Origin: Bacteroidia bacterium
GTDB taxonomy: Bacteria; Bacteroidota; Bacteroidia; Flavobacteriales; Flavobacteriaceae
Length of the DNA: 64,000 nucleotides
NCBI GenBank assembly: GCA_030427865.1
Contig: JAUICK010000006.1
Span: 62,001 to 126,000, forward strand
Reading direction: 5' to 3'
Numbering within the stretch: position 1 is the first letter of the stretch; every line of letters begins with the position of its first letter. Made by a program: the position numbers and the translations under genes. Positions 50,435-62,957 of the stretch are shown piece by piece. The notes under the pieces are model-generated. The model had not been told where the DNA came from. It saw nothing but the letters and a program-made list of their open reading frames with translations, and did not search any database.

Positions 50435-50467
50435 AAAAAAGGTTCATCTTTCGATGAACCTTTTTTC
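50435..50467 (+). terminator. Terminator downstream of crp/fnr
   Basis: aaaaaaggttcatctttcgatgaaccttttttc. Confidence 0.85.
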
Positions 50468-50501
50468 GGTCTGGACGGGACTATCCGTCTAACCAAAAAC
50501 C
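50467..50501 (-). other. Degenerate tRNA-Asp-like remnant, candidate attachment-site scar
   Basis: Minus strand ggtttTTGGTTAGAcggatAGTCCCGTCCAGACCG: D-arm-like and 3'-end-like segments of a tRNA-Asp with the middle missing. Confidence 0.4.
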
Positions 50502-50716: not shown

Positions 50717-51358
50717 TTAAGAAGCCGTACCAGAGCCTAAATACACACTATTTGATACTACATTACCATCAGCAGAAACGAATGCCATAAAAAGCTCTAC
50801 TGCATCTCCTGCATAGGTGCTTGGTATATTTACAACTTGAGAACCTGCTGTTCTTACTGCGCCATCTAAAATAGAAATAGATTCCTTTTTGCTTGGATTG
50901 TAAACTAATACCATTGCTTTATCTGTAGCATTTGCATTTCCTTCTGCTGAATTATCGTCCCAACTAAAAGAAACTTGTCCAGCTGTTGCTAGATCTGTTG
51001 AGCCATTTAAAACTCCAGATAAATTACCTCTACTTAATAAAGCTAATGAATAATCGATTGTGAAATTAGGCGCAATACCATCTACTGCATTATTTAACAC
51101 ATAAGACATTGCTGCGTTAAACTCAGTTTTCTTAGTGGCAAACGACTTGTAACCAATCTTAACAAAGTCTTTATTCGCTTGTAAATACTCTAGTGTAATC
51201 GTAAATTTATTACGTTGATTAACTTGTCCCTCTGTACGAGGATTCGCTACGCTAGATGGTTTAATTCTGATGTAGTCGATACCTTTCCAGCTTCCGCCTA
51301 CAATGTTTCCTACCTTTCCAGATAAGCCCCCTAAAATTCCTTGAGATATTTTTCCCAT
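50717..51358 (-). CDS. DUF6266 family protein
   Basis: MGKISQGILGGLSGKVGNIVGGSWKGIDYIRIKPSSVANPRTEGQVNQRNKF. Confidence 0.85.
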   Translation of the reverse strand: MGKISQGILGGLSGKVGNIVGGSWKGIDYIRIKPSSVANPRTEGQVNQRNKFTITLEYLQANKDFVKIGYKSFATKKTEFNAAMSYVLNNAVDGIAPNFTIDYSLALLSRGNLSGVLNGSTDLATAGQVSFSWDDNSAEGNANATDKAMVLVYNPSKKESISILDGAVRTAGSQVVNIPSTYAGDAVELFMAFVSADGNVVSNSVYLGSGTAS

Positions 51359-51494: not shown

Positions 51495-51932
51495 TTAAGC
51501 TTCTTTACTTTGCATTACTTTGAAACAATTACGAATATATGCAACCTTTAAAACCGCCATTTTATCAATGATTTTTTGTAACTCTATTTCTTTTTTATTG
51601 ATAAGCTCTACCGCTTTAATATGCTTTTGCATCTGATTGGTGATATTATTTGATTTTAAACCATTTTTAAGCGTATTTCTGCAATCATTTATAGAAATGA
51701 AAGGAATTACACTCCCTTTTAAATAATACGCATAAAAACCACCTATTTGCAACATTAAAGACAGGTAAAAAAGTGTGTTTTTATCACAATCATTTTGAGT
51801 GATAACCACAAAACAGTTTGCACAAGGATTTGATAAAGGCTTACCGCTGTTAAGCCCTTTGTTTAAAATAAAAAAATGAGGTTGCGCATAGGATTTACCT
51901 ACTTGGTGTGTTTTTAGTTCAAAAGTTGACAT
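51495..51932 (-). CDS. Hypothetical mobile-element-associated protein (possibly DUF6943)
   Basis: 145-aa ORF; family assignment from memory only. Confidence 0.55.
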   Translation of the reverse strand: MSTFELKTHQVGKSYAQPHFFILNKGLNSGKPLSNPCANCFVVITQNDCDKNTLFYLSLMLQIGGFYAYYLKGSVIPFISINDCRNTLKNGLKSNNITNQMQKHIKAVELINKKEIELQKIIDKMAVLKVAYIRNCFKVMQSKEA

Positions 51933-52185
51933 AGCTATCCAATTTAAAATTGCTTCGCTACGCTTCGCACCATTATTTTTTTTGAAAAGAAAAAAAGATA
52001 GCTACTATTGTTGTGGCGTGGATAAGGCTGTCAAGGTTTTTGGATAAAAGTTTTTTTAGCAAAAATGTACTAATTAAGCCCAAAGGCTATTGAAAAAAAA
52101 GTTTTATTCAAAACCCTTTAGGGCTTGACCTTTATAGCCTTTAGCGTGGGCTGTAGAAGCCACATATATTTGCTGCCTTTTTTTA

Positions 52186-52464
52186 TTATTTTTTATCTAG
52201 AATATCTAAAATATCTTGTTTTTTGTAAAACACTCTATTGCCAATACGACGAGATTTTAAAATATTGGTTTTAGACCAAATATTTAATGTTACTAAACTA
52301 ACTTTTAAATATTCTGAAGCTTGAAGTCTAGTTAGTAATTCATCATTTTTTTTAGTAGATATTTTTTTTAGATAATCTTCTATTTTTAAGACTAATTTAT
52401 CTGTAATTATATCTGACAATTCATCGATTGAGATTTCTGTAATTTGGATGGTTTTAGTTTTCAT
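52186..52464 (-). CDS. Helix-turn-helix (excisionase/MerR-type) DNA-binding protein
   Basis: LLTRLQASEYLKVSLVTLNIWSKTNILKSRRIGNRVFYKKQDILDIL. Confidence 0.85.
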   Translation of the reverse strand: MKTKTIQITEISIDELSDIITDKLVLKIEDYLKKISTKKNDELLTRLQASEYLKVSLVTLNIWSKTNILKSRRIGNRVFYKKQDILDILDKK

Positions 52465-52600
52465 AATTAAAATATAAATGTTTTTATAAATTTATTATCT
52501 TTATGCTTTGTGAGGTAACTCACATTCTTTTTCATAGCAATTTTTACCCATGTCTTTTCTGATGTGGGTTTTTCTTTTAAATGAAATTTAAAACTATTAA

Positions 52601-52910
52601 CGTACCTAGTGCGTGGGCAGAAGTGGCAGGTAAAAGCGTGGGGAAAGCGGCTATTTTACATAATTAGGTTATAGACCCTGTAGTTTACGAAAGAGGGCTA
52701 TAACATCTGGTTATGTAAATATAGCTTTGGAAAAGTTTAGGGTTTTATGAAAACAATTAAAACGACTAGCTTTTTGTAGTTGTGTTTGAGTTTACGAAAA
52801 TACAAGCTACAATATGCTAGAACCTATGAGATAAAAAAACGCTAAACTTAGGTGTTGGAAAGCGGAACAACACAAAAAATAGAGGGTTTTGAGGTACGAG
52901 AATACTAGGT
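52601..52910. ncRNA. Candidate structured non-coding element (strand and nature unknown)
   Basis: ORF-free; nested complementary segments enclosing two large hairpins with shared loop motif TTTACGAAA. Confidence 0.45.
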
Positions 52911-52925
52911 TTTGGGTTGTGGGGA

Positions 52926-53546
52926 CTATAAAGGGTAAGAATCATCCATAACTCTCGGAATAAAATAACCCTTTATACAATTGGGGTTACGTAGAGCAAT
53001 CTGTATATGGTTTTTCTCTTTGAAACCTGCATTAGGATATAATTCTTCACCTTCAAAAAATACGCCTCTCACAGAATCAAAAGGTCTTTTATTTTTATCT
53101 TTATTAAATTGATGTATAGATTCAATTACAGCACAATCTAAATATCTTTTTAATAAATCACCATTTTCTTTTAATGGAATATTTTTAGGGATTTTAATGT
53201 TAAAAACTTCATTAGACTTTTTTAAAGTTTCATAACCTACACTTAGCAAAGCTAAATTTTCAGAATCTAATAAATCAAGACAAAAACCTAAATCGATTAC
53301 TGCGCCTAACACAGCTGGCTCTTTTATCTTTTGTTTTTTATTATGTGGAGGATTTTTACTTAAAAAAGTTGCAAATTCTAATGCTCTTTGATAATTATTT
53401 TCCCAAAAATATATCCCACTACCAAGCCAATCATAAGAGTTATCGCTTTGCTCAAGAATTTCACCTTCAACCGAAACAATCTTATCCCTTAATTCTTTAT
53501 CACAACCGTGAAAACCTAAAACTAGACCGCTTCTCTTGGAGTACAT
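52926..53546 (-). CDS. ADP-ribosyltransferase-fold-like protein, putative toxin
   Basis: LGFHGCD...DWLGSGIYFWE...VRGVFFEGEELYPNAGFKEKNHIQIALRNPNCIKGYF, ART-like H-Y-[E/Q] pattern. Confidence 0.5.
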   Translation of the reverse strand: MYSKRSGLVLGFHGCDKELRDKIVSVEGEILEQSDNSYDWLGSGIYFWENNYQRALEFATFLSKNPPHNKKQKIKEPAVLGAVIDLGFCLDLLDSENLALLSVGYETLKKSNEVFNIKIPKNIPLKENGDLLKRYLDCAVIESIHQFNKDKNKRPFDSVRGVFFEGEELYPNAGFKEKNHIQIALRNPNCIKGYFIPRVMDDSYPL

Positions 53547-54470: not shown

Positions 54471-55073
54471 TTAATGCCTACCACAAAGAGGCTTTAATCT
54501 ATCTGCTACCATTTTTTCTAGTAAGTTTAAATACATTGGGTTTTGTATATCTTTAAACTCAATTACGTTTAAAGTAATTTCAAAATCTAAACCTTGTGCA
54601 TAATGAACTAACTGCAAACCTTGAGTTCTATTAACTTTATAATAGCCCATATGTTGATTTATTCTACCAACTATATTTGTTAGGTTCGCAGGTTTTTTCT
54701 TACCTCTTCTAATGCCTACATATAACACTTTACTACCTTTATTTGTGTTTTTATTTTTTGCAGGAACTGTTCTATGACCTGTTGTTCCTTTTGGAGTTCT
54801 AAAAGCATTTATTAAATCATTTAACTCATTGGCTTTACTTTCTGTTTCTAACTCAAACCAATATAAACAATGGTTGTGTTTGTGGTCTAATTCTTCAAAT
54901 AAATATCTAAAATCCTCATCAACATTAGGGGAATATCTATCTTCTTGATAGTCTTTTAAGTTTTTGGTATTGAATTTTTTAGAATAAAAACCTTCGACTT
55001 CTTTAGCTATTATTTTATCTACTATAGCTTCTAATTTGCTATTTATTAAATTAATTTCAGATGCAAGTTTCAT
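54471..55073 (-). CDS. GIY-YIG-like nuclease superfamily protein
   Basis: SKVLYVGIRRGKKKPANLTNIVGRINQHMGYY; ATGA overlap with hsdM. Confidence 0.5.
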   Translation of the reverse strand: MKLASEINLINSKLEAIVDKIIAKEVEGFYSKKFNTKNLKDYQEDRYSPNVDEDFRYLFEELDHKHNHCLYWFELETESKANELNDLINAFRTPKGTTGHRTVPAKNKNTNKGSKVLYVGIRRGKKKPANLTNIVGRINQHMGYYKVNRTQGLQLVHYAQGLDFEITLNVIEFKDIQNPMYLNLLEKMVADRLKPLCGRH

Positions 55074-56692
55074 ATGGTATCTAACCCCAATTCTTTTAAA
55101 TAACTATTATGCTCTTCTCTACTTGATTTTATGTTCTCTTCAATAGCTACAAGTTTTGTATTCACTTCTTTTAAGTTGATGATGGGTTCTGGTTTTGCTG
55201 TACTAACATATCTAGAAATATTTAGGTTGTAATCGTTTTTTTCTATTTCTACCATTGATACGCTACGTGCATACCTTTCTATTTTATCTGGTCTGTTTTG
55301 ATAAGTATCAACTATTCTCTTTATATCTTTTTTTCGTAAAACGTTCTGACGTTTTTCTTTTGCAAAATTCTCTTCATCACTTGCATTAATAAATAACACA
55401 TCATCTTCTTTTTTACACTTCTTTAACACCAATATACAAACTGGAATACCAGTTGAAAAGAATAAATTTGATGGCAAACCAATTACAGTATCTATATTGC
55501 CATCCTTTAGTAATTTTTCTCTGATACGTTGTTCTGCACCACCTCTAAATAAAACTCCATGAGGTAAAATAATAGCCATTGTACCCTCATCACTTAAAAA
55601 GTGAAAACCGTGTAATAAAAAGGCAAAATCTGCTGCCGATTTCGGTGCTAAACCATAATTTTTAAAACGAAAATCTTCACCCATTGCTTCTGAAGCATCC
55701 CAACGTAAACTAAAAGGTGGATTTGCAACAATAGCATCAAAAGTTACTTTTTTTGCAGGATTCATTTCGTTTAAAATATCCCATTCGTTTTTTAAGGTAT
55801 CTCCGTGAAATATTTCGAATTCAGAATCTTTAACACCGTGCAACAACATATTCATACGTGCTAAGTTGTATGTTGTGATGTTTTTTTCTTGTCCGTAAAT
55901 TCTACTGATATAGCCACCGCCTTTTTCTATCTTATCTTTTACATTTAAGAGTAAAGAACCTGAGCCACAGGTAAAATCTAACACTCTATTGATTTTTTTC
56001 TTTTTCCCTGCTTTTGGATTTTGACTGTCTAGTGTTACAATTTCTGATAAGATGGTAGAAATTTGCTGTGGTGTATAAAACTCACCTGCTTTTTTACCTG
56101 AACCTGCTGCAAACTCACCAATTAAATACTCGTAAGCATCACCTAATGTGTCTGTGTCTGTTGAAAACTCTGCAATACCATCTGATATTTTTTTGATGAT
56201 AGTACATAGCTTTTTATTTCTATCTGAATAGGTTTTACCAAGTTTTTCTGAATCTAAATTGATTTCTGAAAATAGACCTTTAAAAGAACTCTCAAAAGAT
56301 TCGTTTTCTATATACTTAAAACCCTTTTGAAGATTTACCAATAACTCGTTATCTTGAATACGTGCTAATTCTGAAATGCTACCCCATAAATACTCTGGTT
56401 TAATCACATAGTGTACCTTTCTACGCATTTGCTTTTCAAAAGGTTCTATATCATTTGGGTTTGCTTCATACCAAACTGACAGTGGAGTACGTTTATCATT
56501 TGTTTCTAAATTAGGATAATCTGAACCTAATTCTTTTTTTACAGAAGCCTCATAGTTATCTGATAAATAACGTAAAAAGAGAAATGATAGCATATAATCA
56601 CGAAAATCATCTGCGTTCATTGCACCTCTTAGATCATTGGCTATATCCCAAAGGGCTTTCCCTAATTGTTCTTGTCTTTGTTTTGCAGTCAT
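55070..56692 (-). CDS. hsdM: Type I restriction-modification DNA methyltransferase subunit
   Basis: DFTCGSGSLLL, FDAIVANPPFSLRW, GKKAGEFYTPQ. Confidence 0.97.
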   Translation of the reverse strand: MTAKQRQEQLGKALWDIANDLRGAMNADDFRDYMLSFLFLRYLSDNYEASVKKELGSDYPNLETNDKRTPLSVWYEANPNDIEPFEKQMRRKVHYVIKPEYLWGSISELARIQDNELLVNLQKGFKYIENESFESSFKGLFSEINLDSEKLGKTYSDRNKKLCTIIKKISDGIAEFSTDTDTLGDAYEYLIGEFAAGSGKKAGEFYTPQQISTILSEIVTLDSQNPKAGKKKKINRVLDFTCGSGSLLLNVKDKIEKGGGYISRIYGQEKNITTYNLARMNMLLHGVKDSEFEIFHGDTLKNEWDILNEMNPAKKVTFDAIVANPPFSLRWDASEAMGEDFRFKNYGLAPKSAADFAFLLHGFHFLSDEGTMAIILPHGVLFRGGAEQRIREKLLKDGNIDTVIGLPSNLFFSTGIPVCILVLKKCKKEDDVLFINASDEENFAKEKRQNVLRKKDIKRIVDTYQNRPDKIERYARSVSMVEIEKNDYNLNISRYVSTAKPEPIINLKEVNTKLVAIEENIKSSREEHNSYLKELGLDTI

Positions 56693-56697
56693 TCCTT

Positions 56698-57759
56698 TTA
56701 ATACTTAAATTTATATTTAACTTGAATTTTTTGAAAAATATCCTTTAAAAGATCTTCGTCAGCTTCAGCCATTTTATTGAATTGCATTTTGTATGCATTT
56801 TTATGTGATAAATGATTTATAATAACCATTGTATCTGCAATTTTTTCTTTTTCAATTCCTATTTGTTCTAGTGTAAAACTTATTCTACCTTGACCAAGAA
56901 AAGAAGATATATTTTCTAATAATTGTCTTAGAAGAACAAAATGATAGGCAAATAATTCTGATTTAATTGCCTCGTCAATTATTTGCATTAAATGAAGATG
57001 AAATAAAAACACATCTTTTTTTGCATTTTTTAACTCAAGTGTTTCATTAGTATTTTTTAGAATTCCAACCTTTGTAATTTCTTTGAATTTACCACTTTTC
57101 TCACCTCTTGTTAATCTATCTGCAAGAATTGAGAATAAACCTATGTGATGTGTGGTTAATATTATGTTTTTTTCTAGATAATTATCTTCAATTAAATTAA
57201 ATATAGATTCAGAAGTAACATAAATGTTATGTTCATCTAAACTAGAAACAGGGTCATCTATAAAAATATGAGCATTTTGAATATCTGCAAAACCATCAAC
57301 TTCAAATAAAGCCAAAAAGAAACACCATACAAAAATACGCTCTTCGCCTCTTGATATTTTAATTGGACTTTCTGTTTCTTCATCTACAAAGAAAGTAATG
57401 GATTCAAAACCCCGTTCTAAATCCTCATAATTAAACTTGAACTTATATTTCGGTTTATATAAAGCTAGTTTTTCTTCAATAATAGGCACATCTAAAAAAG
57501 AATGAAATTTATTTAGATTACTACTGTTTATGGTGAGCTTAATGTCATTATTATCATTTGATTCATCATTATCCCAAACAAACAAATCTTCACTAAAAGC
57601 ATTATAATAAACACCAGAATGATTATCATCATTTTTTTCTTTAGATATATCTTTATACGCTACAGAAAGTCTTGTTTTCCCTGCACCATTAAATGCATAT
57701 ATTAAAATAATATTCTCATTTAAGCTATATATTTCTTCAGCAATTTCTTTATGATTCAT
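56698..57759 (-). CDS. AAA/ABC-type ATPase, PrrC/RloC-like putative anticodon nuclease
   Basis: Walker A FNGAGKTRLS, signature ISRGEER, Walker B HIFIDDPVSSLD, C-terminal LLRQLLE...INHLSHKNAY (RxxxE...H). Confidence 0.65.
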   Translation of the reverse strand: MNHKEIAEEIYSLNENIILIYAFNGAGKTRLSVAYKDISKEKNDDNHSGVYYNAFSEDLFVWDNDESNDNNDIKLTINSSNLNKFHSFLDVPIIEEKLALYKPKYKFKFNYEDLERGFESITFFVDEETESPIKISRGEERIFVWCFFLALFEVDGFADIQNAHIFIDDPVSSLDEHNIYVTSESIFNLIEDNYLEKNIILTTHHIGLFSILADRLTRGEKSGKFKEITKVGILKNTNETLELKNAKKDVFLFHLHLMQIIDEAIKSELFAYHFVLLRQLLENISSFLGQGRISFTLEQIGIEKEKIADTMVIINHLSHKNAYKMQFNKMAEADEDLLKDIFQKIQVKYKFKY

Positions 57760-57761
57760 TT

Positions 57762-58970
57762 TTAAATAATGTTAGGAAACAATTGTTGTAATAAACCTTT
57801 TTTATGGTGTTGTAATTGTTCTATTCTTAGTGTTTGTTTTTCTATTAAAGTATCTACAGATGATAAACACTTGGCTATTCTTTGTTGTTCTTTTGGGTCT
57901 TTAGGTTTTAAAATCTTCAGTTTCGAATAAACAGAAATCCAATGTCTCTTATGTGTACTTACTTCAAACTTCAAATTTTGAATAGCTTCAAACATAAATT
58001 TTATATCATTATCATCTTTAGCTAATAAAATTTTCATTGCTGAGGATTTAACCTTGAAAGAAAAATCTACAAATTTTGATGCTGTTGTAAAGTCATCAAA
58101 AATAATAACTGGAAGGTTTTCATTAAATATTCCTTCTTTTTCATCTGTATAACCTAAAACAAATGTTTTACCTGCTGTTAATACAGGTGTTTCAAACTTA
58201 TCATCATAATCAGTACTTTCAACTAAATAAGGTGTTGGCTGTAAGTAATCAAGACATTTTTCTAAAGTAGTTGGTATCCAGTCTCCATCATTTTGAAATT
58301 CTTTAAAACGAAATTGTGGTTTTGTCTCTCCTTGTTTTGGAAACAACTGTTGTAACAAACCTTTTTTATGGTCTTTTAAAAGGTCTAATTTTTCGGTTTC
58401 TGCTGTGATTAAATTGTCTAAGGATGATAAACAATTGGCTATTTTTTGTTGTTCTTTTTTGTTTGTTGGAATTGCTAATCTAAATTCTTTTAACCAAGTA
58501 GAGTTTAAATTCATTTTAGCACCACCAGCAACTTTCTGCTCCACTTGTTTCCAGAATAAATCTGAATCCATCCAATATCTGACATACTTATTATCAGCTC
58601 TTCTGTTGACTCTAAAAAAACCAAGACTAACAAAAATACCAAACTCAACATCTTCTTTAACAATAATTGGATTACCTAAATTAGAACCAACCCTAGTGAA
58701 AAGTATGTCACCGACTTTTGGTTTTGTACTATCAGGCATACTTAAAAACTTCTCTTCACTTATGTAATTTATATCTTTAAAATCAATATACCCATTTGAG
58801 ATATTCTTTGAAGATAAAAAAGGGATACCTGAATCAATATAATCTGGCTTATGAGTTAAACCTATTTTAATTTTTCCAAGCTCCGAAAACCCAACATCTT
58901 GATATTCTGAATCAAACTCAGGAAAACGTAATTTTGGAATTAACTTTTGTTCTTCTTTATTCATAAGCAT
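57762..58970 (-). CDS. hsdS: Type I restriction specificity subunit
   Basis: Two TRDs, repeated KEQQKIANCLSSLDNLI...HKKGLLQQLFP conserved regions. Confidence 0.95.
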   Translation of the reverse strand: MLMNKEEQKLIPKLRFPEFDSEYQDVGFSELGKIKIGLTHKPDYIDSGIPFLSSKNISNGYIDFKDINYISEEKFLSMPDSTKPKVGDILFTRVGSNLGNPIIVKEDVEFGIFVSLGFFRVNRRADNKYVRYWMDSDLFWKQVEQKVAGGAKMNLNSTWLKEFRLAIPTNKKEQQKIANCLSSLDNLITAETEKLDLLKDHKKGLLQQLFPKQGETKPQFRFKEFQNDGDWIPTTLEKCLDYLQPTPYLVESTDYDDKFETPVLTAGKTFVLGYTDEKEGIFNENLPVIIFDDFTTASKFVDFSFKVKSSAMKILLAKDDNDIKFMFEAIQNLKFEVSTHKRHWISVYSKLKILKPKDPKEQQRIAKCLSSVDTLIEKQTLRIEQLQHHKKGLLQQLFPNII

Positions 58971-61941
58971 TTAATCCTGCTATTTCACGCCCTTGGGCTA
59001 GTTTGTTTAATAAGGGTACTAAATCTTCCATTAAGTTTAATTCTTTTACTCTACGGTCTTTCCAACCTAAGTCTAAAGGAGCTAATAAATCCGTTAACTT
59101 TTCGCCATCAAATAGCATTCGGTTTAATATTTCATTTATAAACGCATTTAGGCTTTCTGTTGTAATACTATGCTTTTCTGCAAGAATTTGTATTTCTTTT
59201 GCAGCTTTATGGTCTTTAAATTGTTGGTAGCCTTTGCGTATTTCCTCTTCATTTAAAGCATTCCCTACTTCTAAGGTATTTATGTAGGCAATAATATCTA
59301 CACGTTCGTCCATTAAATTGGCACTAGAGCTTAATAGGTTTATTAGCTCCTCACGTGTCATTTTATGCTTCGATGGTTTGTCTTGTGTGTATTTTGCAAT
59401 TAAACCAATGATATAATCGTAATCGATTACTGCAGAAGAAAAGAGTACAAATTCGAAATCTAATTGTTGTATATCTTTAGGTGCTTGGTCGCCTTTTTTA
59501 TTTTGAGCAGCCTGTAAACGTTTAGCCGTATCTAAATACGCCGATTTAAAAGAACGTAAATCGTCTTCAGGTAATAAGGCTTCAATGGTTTCTGTTTGGG
59601 TTTCTTCTAAATCTGTATATTGATCTAGTTGTGTTTTGTAACGTTGTACTTCTTTAAAGGCATTTATAAAACCTGCACGTGCTTCATCGCCTTTTAAATT
59701 ACTCACTTCAGAAGCATTACATTCCAACCCTTTGGCTTCCATAAACTGCACCAAATTGTTTACTGCTTTTTGGTATTTCTCAATAACTTTAGGTGCAGCA
59801 TCTACCAACCAAATTTCTTTTGCTTTATCTATTTTAGCCCCAGAAAAACGAATCATTGCTTTGTTTACCTCTTCTTCTTGGTCTCTAAAGACTAAAATAT
59901 TACCATAAGGTTTGGTATCGTTTATTACTCTATTGGTACGTGAATAAGCTTGTATTAATCCATGGTATCTTAAATTTTTATCTACATACAACGTATTTAG
60001 ATATTTAGAATCGAAACCTGTGAGTAGCATATCTACCACAATAACAACATCAATCTTGTTTTTATGAGGATAGTCTGCATTGGTATATTTTTGGTCTTTG
60101 ATACGTTTCTGAATATCTTGATAATACAAATCGAACTCACTTATACTATGGTTTGAACCATATTGTTTGTTATAATCTGCTAGTATAGTAGTTAAAGCTT
60201 CTTTCTTTTTGTTAGGTTCTATTTGATTGTCTGCCTTTTCTTGAGGTAAATCTTCTTGTATTTGTTTTATGTCCTTATTACCTTCTGCTGGAGGAGAAAA
60301 CACACAAGCAATTTGCAATGGTTTGTAATCTGGATTTACTTGGGTAAACTCTCTTTGATTTTGTTTGAATAAATGATAGTATTCAATAGCATCTGAAATA
60401 GAAGATGTAGCCAATACACTATTAAACCTTCTGTAATGTGTTGCTTTATCGTGCTTTTTTAAAATGGTATCAATTACCGCCATTTTATGGCTTAAACTAT
60501 CGGTATCAATTTTTACATCAGGTTTAAAATAATCGATATGAAAACGCAATACGTTTTTATCTTCAATGGCATTTGTAATGGTATACGCGTGTAATTCTTT
60601 TTGAAAAACATCTTCTGTAGTTTTATAAGATGCCTGTGTACCTTCAATAGTTCTATAAGTGGCATTTTCTTCAAAAATGGGTGTTCCTGTAAAACCGAAT
60701 AATTGTGCTTTCGGGAAAAACTCAACAATTGCTTTATGGTTTTCTCCAAATTGTGAACGGTGACATTCATCAAAAATAAATACTACACGTTTGTCTTTTA
60801 AAGGAGCTAAGTGTTCAATGTAATTTTTATCATTTTTGGTATCTAATGCCAAGCCAAGTTTTTGAATTGTGGTTACAATTACTTTATCTGCATAATCTGT
60901 AGAAAGCATTCTTTTTACCAATGTTTTGGTATTGGTATTTTCTTCTACACTACCTTCTTGAAATTTATTAAACTCCTCTCTGGTTTGTCTATCTAAGTCT
61001 TTTCTATCTACAACAAACAAACATTTTTCAATAGCATCATTATCTTTTAAAAGTGTAGAAGCTTTAAAAGAGGTTAGCGTTTTACCACTTCCTGTAGTAT
61101 GCCAAATGTATCCATTTCCTCTATCTTGTTCAATACAATCAACTATAGCTTTTACTGCATAAATTTGATAAGGTCGCATTACCAATATCTTTTGCTCAGT
61201 TTCCACTAACACCATATAGCGACTAATCATTTCACCTAAGGTACATTTTGCTAGAAACTTTTCAGTAAAATCGTCTAAGTGATTAATTTTAGAATTGTCT
61301 TCTTTGGCTAAAGTATAAACTGGTAAAAACTGCTCGTCTGCATTAAAAGCAAAGTGTTTGTTATTATTGTTAGAAAAATAAAAGGTTCTTGTTTTATTAC
61401 TAACGATAAATAATTGCATAAAGCACATTAAGGAATTGGTATATCCGTTTCCTGCATCATTTTTATAATCAACTATTTGTTGCATTGCACGATTAGGACT
61501 AATCTGCAAGGTTTTTAATTCTATTTGAACGAGAGGTAGTCCATTAATCAACAAAATAACATCATATCTATGATTGCTATTTTGGGTATTCATTCGAAGC
61601 TGATTGATAACTTCAAAATCATTTTTACACCAATCTTTTATATTTACTAAAGTATAATGAAGAGGTGTATCGTCTTCTCTGATAAAGGTGTTTCTTTTTC
61701 TTAATAAGTTAGATGTTTTAAATACATCTGGGTTTATAATCTCTGTAAGTAGCTTATCAAATTCGGTATCCGTTAATTTAACTCTATTTAATGCTTCAAA
61801 CTTTTGTCTAAAGTTTTGCTCTAATGAAGCTCTATCTCTTATATCAGTTCTATAGGTGTATTTTAGGTCTTGCAATTTACCTACAAGTCCATATTCTATA
61901 TCTGCCTCATTAACACTATTTATTTGTGTATTACTACTCAT
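58957..61941 (-). CDS. hsdR: Type I restriction endonuclease subunit R
   Basis: GYIWHTTGSGKTLTSFKA, IFDECHRSQFGE, FTGTPIF, VVDMLLTGFDSKYLNTLYVDK. Confidence 0.97.
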   Translation of the reverse strand: MSSNTQINSVNEADIEYGLVGKLQDLKYTYRTDIRDRASLEQNFRQKFEALNRVKLTDTEFDKLLTEIINPDVFKTSNLLRKRNTFIREDDTPLHYTLVNIKDWCKNDFEVINQLRMNTQNSNHRYDVILLINGLPLVQIELKTLQISPNRAMQQIVDYKNDAGNGYTNSLMCFMQLFIVSNKTRTFYFSNNNNKHFAFNADEQFLPVYTLAKEDNSKINHLDDFTEKFLAKCTLGEMISRYMVLVETEQKILVMRPYQIYAVKAIVDCIEQDRGNGYIWHTTGSGKTLTSFKASTLLKDNDAIEKCLFVVDRKDLDRQTREEFNKFQEGSVEENTNTKTLVKRMLSTDYADKVIVTTIQKLGLALDTKNDKNYIEHLAPLKDKRVVFIFDECHRSQFGENHKAIVEFFPKAQLFGFTGTPIFEENATYRTIEGTQASYKTTEDVFQKELHAYTITNAIEDKNVLRFHIDYFKPDVKIDTDSLSHKMAVIDTILKKHDKATHYRRFNSVLATSSISDAIEYYHLFKQNQREFTQVNPDYKPLQIACVFSPPAEGNKDIKQIQEDLPQEKADNQIEPNKKKEALTTILADYNKQYGSNHSISEFDLYYQDIQKRIKDQKYTNADYPHKNKIDVVIVVDMLLTGFDSKYLNTLYVDKNLRYHGLIQAYSRTNRVINDTKPYGNILVFRDQEEEVNKAMIRFSGAKIDKAKEIWLVDAAPKVIEKYQKAVNNLVQFMEAKGLECNASEVSNLKGDEARAGFINAFKEVQRYKTQLDQYTDLEETQTETIEALLPEDDLRSFKSAYLDTAKRLQAAQNKKGDQAPKDIQQLDFEFVLFSSAVIDYDYIIGLIAKYTQDKPSKHKMTREELINLLSSSANLMDERVDIIAYINTLEVGNALNEEEIRKGYQQFKDHKAAKEIQILAEKHSITTESLNAFINEILNRMLFDGEKLTDLLAPLDLGWKDRRVKELNLMEDLVPLLNKLAQGREIAGLNAYE

Positions 61942-62057
61942 TCGACGTTATAGCTTTTTTTATTTGTTAAAAATATAAATATATATTGATTAAATAATAG
62001 GTTTTTGAGCATTTCCTTTTTACCCCTGTTTTAAGGTATATTACAAGTTATAAAACA

Positions 62058-62957
62058 TTAGTTGTTTTTGCAATAGTTTATCTGTTCTATAATTTTACTT
62101 CTGATGCTTTTTTCTAATTCTGAATCTGTAAACGTTTCTAACAGTTTAGCGTACTTTTTTCTGTATAGGGTATATGAATCTTTATGATATTTTTTTAAAC
62201 CCATACAACTGTCTTTATCTTTCATAGCCCCCATTAGCATTATTTCTTTTGGTTGTAATTCTTGATAGTTGATTATGGGTTGTTTTTTAATTGTATCATA
62301 CACATTTAATAACTCATCTGCCAACGCATCAAACTTTTGTTTGTTTACCAAATCTGCTACTGTATATATGCCTATGGCATTTTTACCCGTATTTATGTAT
62401 CTGTAGTTTGCTTCTAGTTCAAACCGAATTAAGCTTTTATCTACTGTAACACCTGATTTTAATTTGGCTTGATAGGTCTTGTCATAGCCCTTTATATTGT
62501 AATTTGTCGCCTTAAAATGAGCACCATAAACACGAGTTGTATTGCGCATTAAAAAGGGTTTTTTGCCTTTATATTCTAGCCAATTTCTAAAGGTATTGTC
62601 TTCAATTTCGTTAATGACTACTGCTACTGATGTTTTTCTTACTTGAGCCGTATATAAATTGAAATCGAAATAATCATTAAGTTCCTCAATCGCCTTTACC
62701 ACTTCTGAATAGATAAAGGGTTTGTAATTGTTATTCATATAGAATTTTTGTAAACTATTACTTATTATCAATTCTGATGAAGTTAATTTAAAATCTAAAT
62801 TTCTAAATTTTGCACTATAAGAAGTTACCTCGCAAATTTTGGGATTGTATTTTGGCGACCATTGAATATTGTTCCAATAAAAAGGCTCTCTTGTTCTTCT
62901 AATTACTTCTTTTGGCATTTTGTCTATTTGCTGAACTAAAACGTTAGTATCGTACAA
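62058..62957 (-). CDS. Phage G2P/X-like rolling-circle replication initiator (inovirus/IME-type Rep)
   Basis: FKATNYNIKGYDKTYQAKLKSG...SLIRFELEANYRYI resembles YDK...E / RFE motifs of Phage_X/G2P Reps. Confidence 0.6.
   Translation of the reverse strand: MYDTNVLVQQIDKMPKEVIRRTREPFYWNNIQWSPKYNPKICEVTSYSAKFRNLDFKLTSSELIISNSLQKFYMNNNYKPFIYSEVVKAIEELNDYFDFNLYTAQVRKTSVAVVINEIEDNTFRNWLEYKGKKPFLMRNTTRVYGAHFKATNYNIKGYDKTYQAKLKSGVTVDKSLIRFELEANYRYINTGKNAIGIYTVADLVNKQKFDALADELLNVYDTIKKQPIINYQELQPKEIMLMGAMKDKDSCMGLKKYHKDSYTLYRKKYAKLLETFTDSELEKSIRSKIIEQINYCKNN

Follow-up and report, generated by a model that had tools for sequence, protein, structure and literature searches.

An integrated island of about 15.2 kb occupies the right-hand part of the window, by which we mean the whole 64,000-nucleotide stretch of DNA that was analysed. 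It has inserted at tRNA-Asp and runs from a 16-bp repeat of the tRNA 3′ end at 50466-50481 (strand not assigned) to the 3′ end of the tRNA itself at about 65690; the tRNA (about 65690-65764) lies beyond the window, and the island integrase is found at this end. Read along the minus strand, the order is integrase, HTH, Rep_trans-like gene, cargo, a noncoding element that we call RNA-1, HTH_17, DUF6943 and DUF6266. The last three genes, all on the minus strand, are at 52186-52464 (HTH_17, by domain match), 51495-51932 (DUF6943) and 50717-51358 (DUF6266). The cargo operon (54471-61941, minus strand) holds a type I restriction-modification system (HsdM, HsdS, HsdR), a PrrC-like gene and a gene for a 200-aa protein, and the last cargo gene (52926-53546, minus strand) encodes 206 aa without a family match that by eye read like an ADP-ribosyltransferase-type protein, with a stop codon that abuts RNA-1.

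The replication or relaxase protein at 62058-62957 (minus strand) is Rep_trans-like at E 0.0034 and 17.4 bits, which is below the Pfam cut-off of 29.6. After its stop codon follows a conserved motif, TTGTAATATACCTTAAAACAGGGGTAA (62020-62046, minus strand), which forms the Rep-side border of the cargo, since the cargo diverges beyond it. The motif is preceded by AC and resembles the CTTG nick site of HUH Reps, and from its sequence it may have a role in nicking. Type A islands likewise have a conserved motif, TTGTAATATACCCTAAAAAAGGGGTAA, at the Rep-side border. Between DUF6943 and HTH_17, at 52102-52184, there is one more conserved block of noncoding sequence, TTCAAAACCCTTTAGGGCTTGACCTTTATAGCC, which is matched in the DUF6266 loci that were compared and possibly forms a hairpin GGCTAT/ATAGCC. 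The predicted structure of the DUF6266 protein is of low confidence (pLDDT 55.9), and the model of a DUF6266-like protein (pLDDT 71.7) gave no Foldseek match at E ≤ 0.001. At five other loci (L239-L242 and L244) the DUF6266 gene is divergent and isolated except for a small HTH gene next to it; RNA-1 is not nearby, and the two genes are perhaps a minimal mobile pair.

RNA-1 itself extends over 52600-52925 on the plus strand, as delimited by homologues, by covariation and by the stop of conservation after GTGGGGA. It is about 330 nt long, with a sharp 3′ end and an approximate 5′ end, as conserved sequence reaches further upstream in some subgroups. The preliminary description had placed a structured noncoding element at 52601-52910; its sequence and coordinates were as given and the element is indeed conserved, but its true end is at 52925, 15 bases further on. 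No ORF of at least 70 aa lies in 52465-52925, and RNA-1 is not a decayed coding gene, a possibility that the same description had allowed for. Both of its strands fold with much more stability than dinucleotide shuffles do (z = -5.4 on the plus and z = -6.4 on the minus strand). The Rfam scan proposed there gave no Rfam 15 family at gathering score for the window or for 20 homologous loci (cmscan), and permissive matches were far below threshold. Among open-licence papers no description was found for DUF6266, for a flavobacterial structured RNA or for satellites. RNA-1 is thus real, an apparently undescribed structured element, and very probably an undescribed family of noncoding RNA.

The fold is a conserved structure of three arms, arm A, arm B and a 3′ hairpin. 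An alignment of 36 copies has 98.5% of the cells in the consensus helices paired, and two-sided compensatory cells number 167 against 49 in shuffles, with none of 500 shuffles reaching the observed number; this comparison is inflated by related sequences, but when partners were slid, a control that retains the relatedness, at most 21 such cells were found. RNA-1 thus exceeds both controls, as is expected for a structured noncoding RNA. Hairpin A, TTTTACATAAT..GTTATAG / CTATAAC..TTATGTAA, comprises helices 1 and 2 on the plus strand at 52649-52725 and is borne out by covariation much as it had been drawn (52650-52725), with 99-100% of cells paired and four pairs with two-sided changes in a stem whose sequence is itself highly conserved. 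Hairpin B (52766-52820, plus strand), CTAGCTTTTTGTAG..CTACAATATGCTAG with the loop TTTACGAAA, is helix 3, and the earlier proposal was right here as well, as 11 of its 17 pairs show two-sided changes. It is enclosed by the outer helix of arm B (52732-52850, plus strand), in which AAAGTTTAGGGTTTTA (52732-52747) pairs with AAAAACGCTAAACTTA (52835-52850). This helix, first proposed as AAGTTTAG/CTAAACTT, was missed by the alignment-based fold because subgroups differ strongly in sequence there, and is instead supported by the energies of its arms: in 67 distinct copies the mean is -20.3 kcal/mol for own arms and -13.3 kcal/mol for arms swapped between copies.

The third arm occupies 52867-52925 on the plus strand, including the terminal GGGGA. 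This 3′ hairpin is helix 4, with 98.9% of cells paired, and joins ACAACACAAAA-AA-TAG (52867-52882) with CTA-GG-TTTTGGGTTGT (52905-52920); the copy in the window has one G-A mismatch and a compensatory change of the consensus CAG/CTG to TAG/CTA. Other pairings had been suggested in this region. The closing helix ACCTAGT/ACTAGGT and its alternative CGTACC/GGTACG are not kept in homologues, and a hairpin GTGTTG/CAACAC is absent as a conserved pairing, its bases belonging to the longer 3′ hairpin. Both ACCTAGT/ACTAGGT and GTGTTG/CAACAC compete with that hairpin and were rejected on the homologues. The repeated GGAAAGCGG generalises to a motif GCGTTGGnnAGCGGA that precedes hairpin A and the 3′ hairpin. 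The shared TTTACGAAA loop has counterparts of the type GAGGnACGA in homologues, and this is a loose generalisation read by eye from the alignment. Short versions of RNA-1 without hairpin B exist (loci L036 and L051), and the core is therefore hairpin A and the 3′ hairpin with their leading motifs. About 300 nt upstream of RNA-1, the loci L047, L093 and L059 have another unit, which contains the hairpin-B motif and finishes in an GGTGGTGGGGA end of its own. Since such a unit precedes RNA-1 in many islands, the full RNA may be longer or duplicated.

On the consensus helices there are 43 G-U/U-G cells but only 7 A-C/C-A cells, and reading the arm-B duplex on the minus strand weakens it (-13.9 against -20.3 kcal/mol on the plus strand). 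It is therefore the plus strand that folds. This favours RNA over single-stranded DNA, although the G-U bias is to some degree compatible with a folded single DNA strand as well.

DNA homologues of RNA-1 occur in 67 of 400 genomes of the family to which the window belongs, or about one in six, some of the matches being short or partial, and the genome of the window carries a second copy (locus L004). A scan of GTDB species representatives with an exact pattern gave 66 stretches, and the named genera were all marine Flavobacteriaceae, among them Winogradskyella, Olleya, Polaribacter, Algibacter, Mesonia, Tenacibaculum, Formosa and Cellulophaga, with a few MAGs besides. A model of the 3′ hairpin, run on 398 genomes drawn from the order, matched solely in the same family. 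Plasmids gave no match to RNA-1 (distant blastn), phages searched with its 3′ part gave two chance matches only, and a search for DUF6266 in phages and plasmids gave nothing. A single IMG/VR contig (L190) was considered as evidence for a phage and rejected, as its neighbouring gene is common to L004.

The islands that carry RNA-1 differ in their replication genes. In other islands initiator-like and DnaC-like genes replace the Rep, and the left module holds a DUF6266-like gene, DUF5675 and genes that by eye look like those of small membrane proteins. A third class consists of tandem 7-9 kb units linked to Rhs loci, with two tyrosine recombinases. DUF6266, DUF6266-like or DUF6943 genes lie 5′ of RNA-1 in 41 of 50 loci (DUF6266 or DUF6266-like in 39, DUF6943 in 27), and 8 of the 50 belong to the Rhs class; these eight are without the DUF6266/DUF6943 set within the stretch read, and another Rhs array has a DUF6266-like gene. 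L191-L194 (G680:C1:2091000-2122000 and 2236000-2266000) are Rhs loci in which nearly identical units of 9 kb stand in tandem arrays of three; each unit has two tyrosine recombinases, a protein of about 500 aa (without a Pfam match for the copy that was tested), an HTH protein, an Rhs C-terminal segment and RNA-1. RNA-1 is consequently independent of any single replication or integration system. It is found alongside replication modules and integrases that are unrelated to one another, which makes it unlikely that its role depends on a particular Rep or a particular integrase. It is part of the island backbone, with a fixed place between the DUF6266-side module and the variable cargo operon.

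That place can also be taken by something else. Ten related DUF6266 islands without RNA-1 have another conserved noncoding block in the same slot, of about 500-1100 nt, which we call RNA-2 (L235, 8380-9185, and equivalents in L225, L229-L234, L236 and L237). It is unrelated to RNA-1, and its 3′ end is sharp as well. An Rfam scan of four of the ten loci gave a tRNA and no other match. The alignment has 126 G-U against 21 A-C cells, and 50 of 171 pairs show two or more Watson-Crick types (RNAalifold), which suggests a second structured family in the slot of RNA-1.

The 3′ end of RNA-1 is the exact start of the swappable cargo, which often consists of antiviral defence genes. Copies that are 97-99.7% identical over RNA-1 continue into unrelated sequence from the first base past GTGGGGA. 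Among 390 pairs with at least 88% identity and different downstream sequence, which are not independent as 103 unique elements represent 48 cargo-end types, 329 share 0-3 bases beyond the end, 11 share 4-6 and 50 share 8; the 8-base cases that were inspected are the same cargo with a one-base shift in an A-run. At least 20 cargo switches took place inside element clusters of 95% identity. The terminus has stayed intact while the neighbouring cargo was exchanged. The last nine bases hold 1.4-2.0 bits per position and those beyond mostly 0.1-0.5; at +2 and +3 the values are 1.0 and 0.7 bits, as antisense TTA stops would lead one to expect. The adjacent ORF converges on RNA-1 in nearly all loci, and an antisense stop triplet begins 0-3 nt past the end in 34 of the 48 types, whereas controls gave 14.9 (at most 27 over 2000 draws).

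How this border arose may be considered in two ways. The 3′ terminus of either the RNA or its gene could itself be what receives cargo, joined past GTGGGGA beside a stop codon in an RNA- or structure-directed manner that would be used by the unrelated families RNA-1 and RNA-2 and be distinct from integrons. We give this little credence. The same metal-resistance cargo joins RNA-2 with about 18 extra bases, and L045 (10190-10274) and L055 retain, between two copies of GGGTTTTGGGTTGTGGGG, about 28 codons left over from an older cargo gene, a trace of past cargo exchange; both observations count against a purely site-specific origin. Selection for compactness together with homologous swapping via the conserved flanks is therefore possible, and in our view more probable than active joining. 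A search for transposon-like terminal repeats, in the form of inverted copies of the 3′ end, found none as a general feature.

As to function, we consider it reasonably probable that RNA-1 is a structured noncoding RNA, read from the plus strand, which belongs to the island backbone of marine Flavobacteriaceae and serves the life cycle of the island. It would be transcribed and act as RNA, probably as a scaffold or regulator to which a protein of the island or the host binds via the GCGTTGGnnAGCGGA and GAGGnACGA motifs, and it would serve the island rather than the cargo genes themselves. That RNA-2, which is also rich in G-U pairs, takes the same place in ten related islands supports a reading as RNA. 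Upstream of RNA-1 no conserved promoter was seen (TAnnTTTG in 36 of 102 copies, 32.9 expected), and at the 3′ end there is no U-tract or intrinsic terminator, only GGGGA and then unrelated cargo; a 3′ end of the RNA at GGGGA would therefore need processing. The preliminary description had left the choice between a structured RNA and a folded single-stranded DNA site such as an oriT, a Rep nick site or a recombination site. Homologues, covariation and strand bias uphold the former, and the named DNA sites found no support. An oriT or double-strand origin of the Rep is unsupported, as RNA-1 is present with Rep_trans-like, DnaC-type and Rhs/recombinase modules alike and the nick-like motif is elsewhere (62020-62046); RNA-1 is shared by islands whose replication genes differ, so that it does not belong to a single Rep as its cognate site. 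An att site of the island was rejected, as those island ends that can be placed are in tRNA genes and the junctions of the tandem units in Rhs coding sequence. As to an omegaRNA or reRNA, none of the gene clusters that the loci have in common was recognisable as TnpB or IscB, and HEARO of Rfam gave no match.

A more general DNA site, for single-strand origin, packaging or transfer, that is seen by a host or helper factor when the island is transferred or replicated, is to our judgement rather unlikely, although it would agree with the folding of one strand only and with an orientation that is constant relative to the cargo in nearly all loci and relative to the Rep in fully read type A islands. 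A site recognised by a helper could also be common to islands with unrelated replication genes. The CTTG motif, if real, would however displace the minus strand, whereas the plus strand folds, which is a mismatch for a single-strand origin; long single-stranded DNA is not to be expected in islands with DnaC-like genes, and the strong tolerance of G-U pairs and the reshaped arm B are more typical of RNA. That RNA-1, as a 3′ insulator or bidirectional terminator, keeps cargo transcription out of the backbone or stabilises the cargo mRNA, with compactness as the reason for the sharp border, seems clearly improbable. Cargo genes do converge on it in most loci, and in about 27 of 50 their stop codons lie within 0-16 nt of it, but the cargo mRNA would carry the minus strand while G-U/A-C bias and duplex energies favour folding of the plus strand, neither side of the 3′ hairpin has a T-run, and a terminator would need nothing like so large a structure. 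Highly improbable is an attachment site in the manner of integron attC, with a folded bottom strand, a tyrosine recombinase and a site of its own for each cargo unit. Near-identical elements after different genes, the exact junction close to a stop codon, folding of the non-coding (bottom) strand of the cargo and the two tyrosine recombinases near RNA-1 in some units speak for it. But nearly all loci have one site per island, arrays of single-gene cassettes are absent, the tandem copies are whole 7-9 kb units with their junctions in Rhs sequence, island ends lie in tRNA genes, and RNA-1 is several times the length of attC.

The likeness to attC is nevertheless close in one respect, a near-identical folded site that stands, with an exact junction, beside the stop codons of genes unrelated to one another, the non-coding strand being the one that folds. 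RNA-1 differs in its three arms, its length of about 330 nt, its single copy per island, its cargo of whole operons and in having no evidence of recombination in the element. If the border is actively made, it bears on an old open question, how genes are joined precisely, at the stop codon, to a mobile folded structure. Phages or mobile elements frequently carry GOLLD and ROOL. Together with OLE, these two belong to the large, ornate, strongly covarying noncoding RNAs of bacteria (PMC12286853). RNA-1 is likewise bacterial and strongly covarying, but it is about 330 nt long with another layout, matches no Rfam sequence or model, lies at a cargo border and was restricted to Flavobacteriaceae in the searches made. 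Flavo-1 and other flavobacterial RNAs of Rfam (named in PMC9723704) are also structured motifs widespread in this family, and none of them matched RNA-1 by cmscan. To the few large RNAs of bacteria that lack a known function, RNA-1 adds a family with a fold supported by covariation and a model to search with, and it is placed at the cargo slot of islands that carry defence and metal-resistance genes across many genera of marine Flavobacteriaceae. Mobile elements such as SXT/R391, P4-like elements and PICIs also carry their defence or resistance cargo in a fixed place between conserved backbone modules. The islands with RNA-1 share this arrangement with such integrative elements and phage satellites, but here one border of the cargo coincides exactly with the point where a covarying, structured element has its 3′ end.
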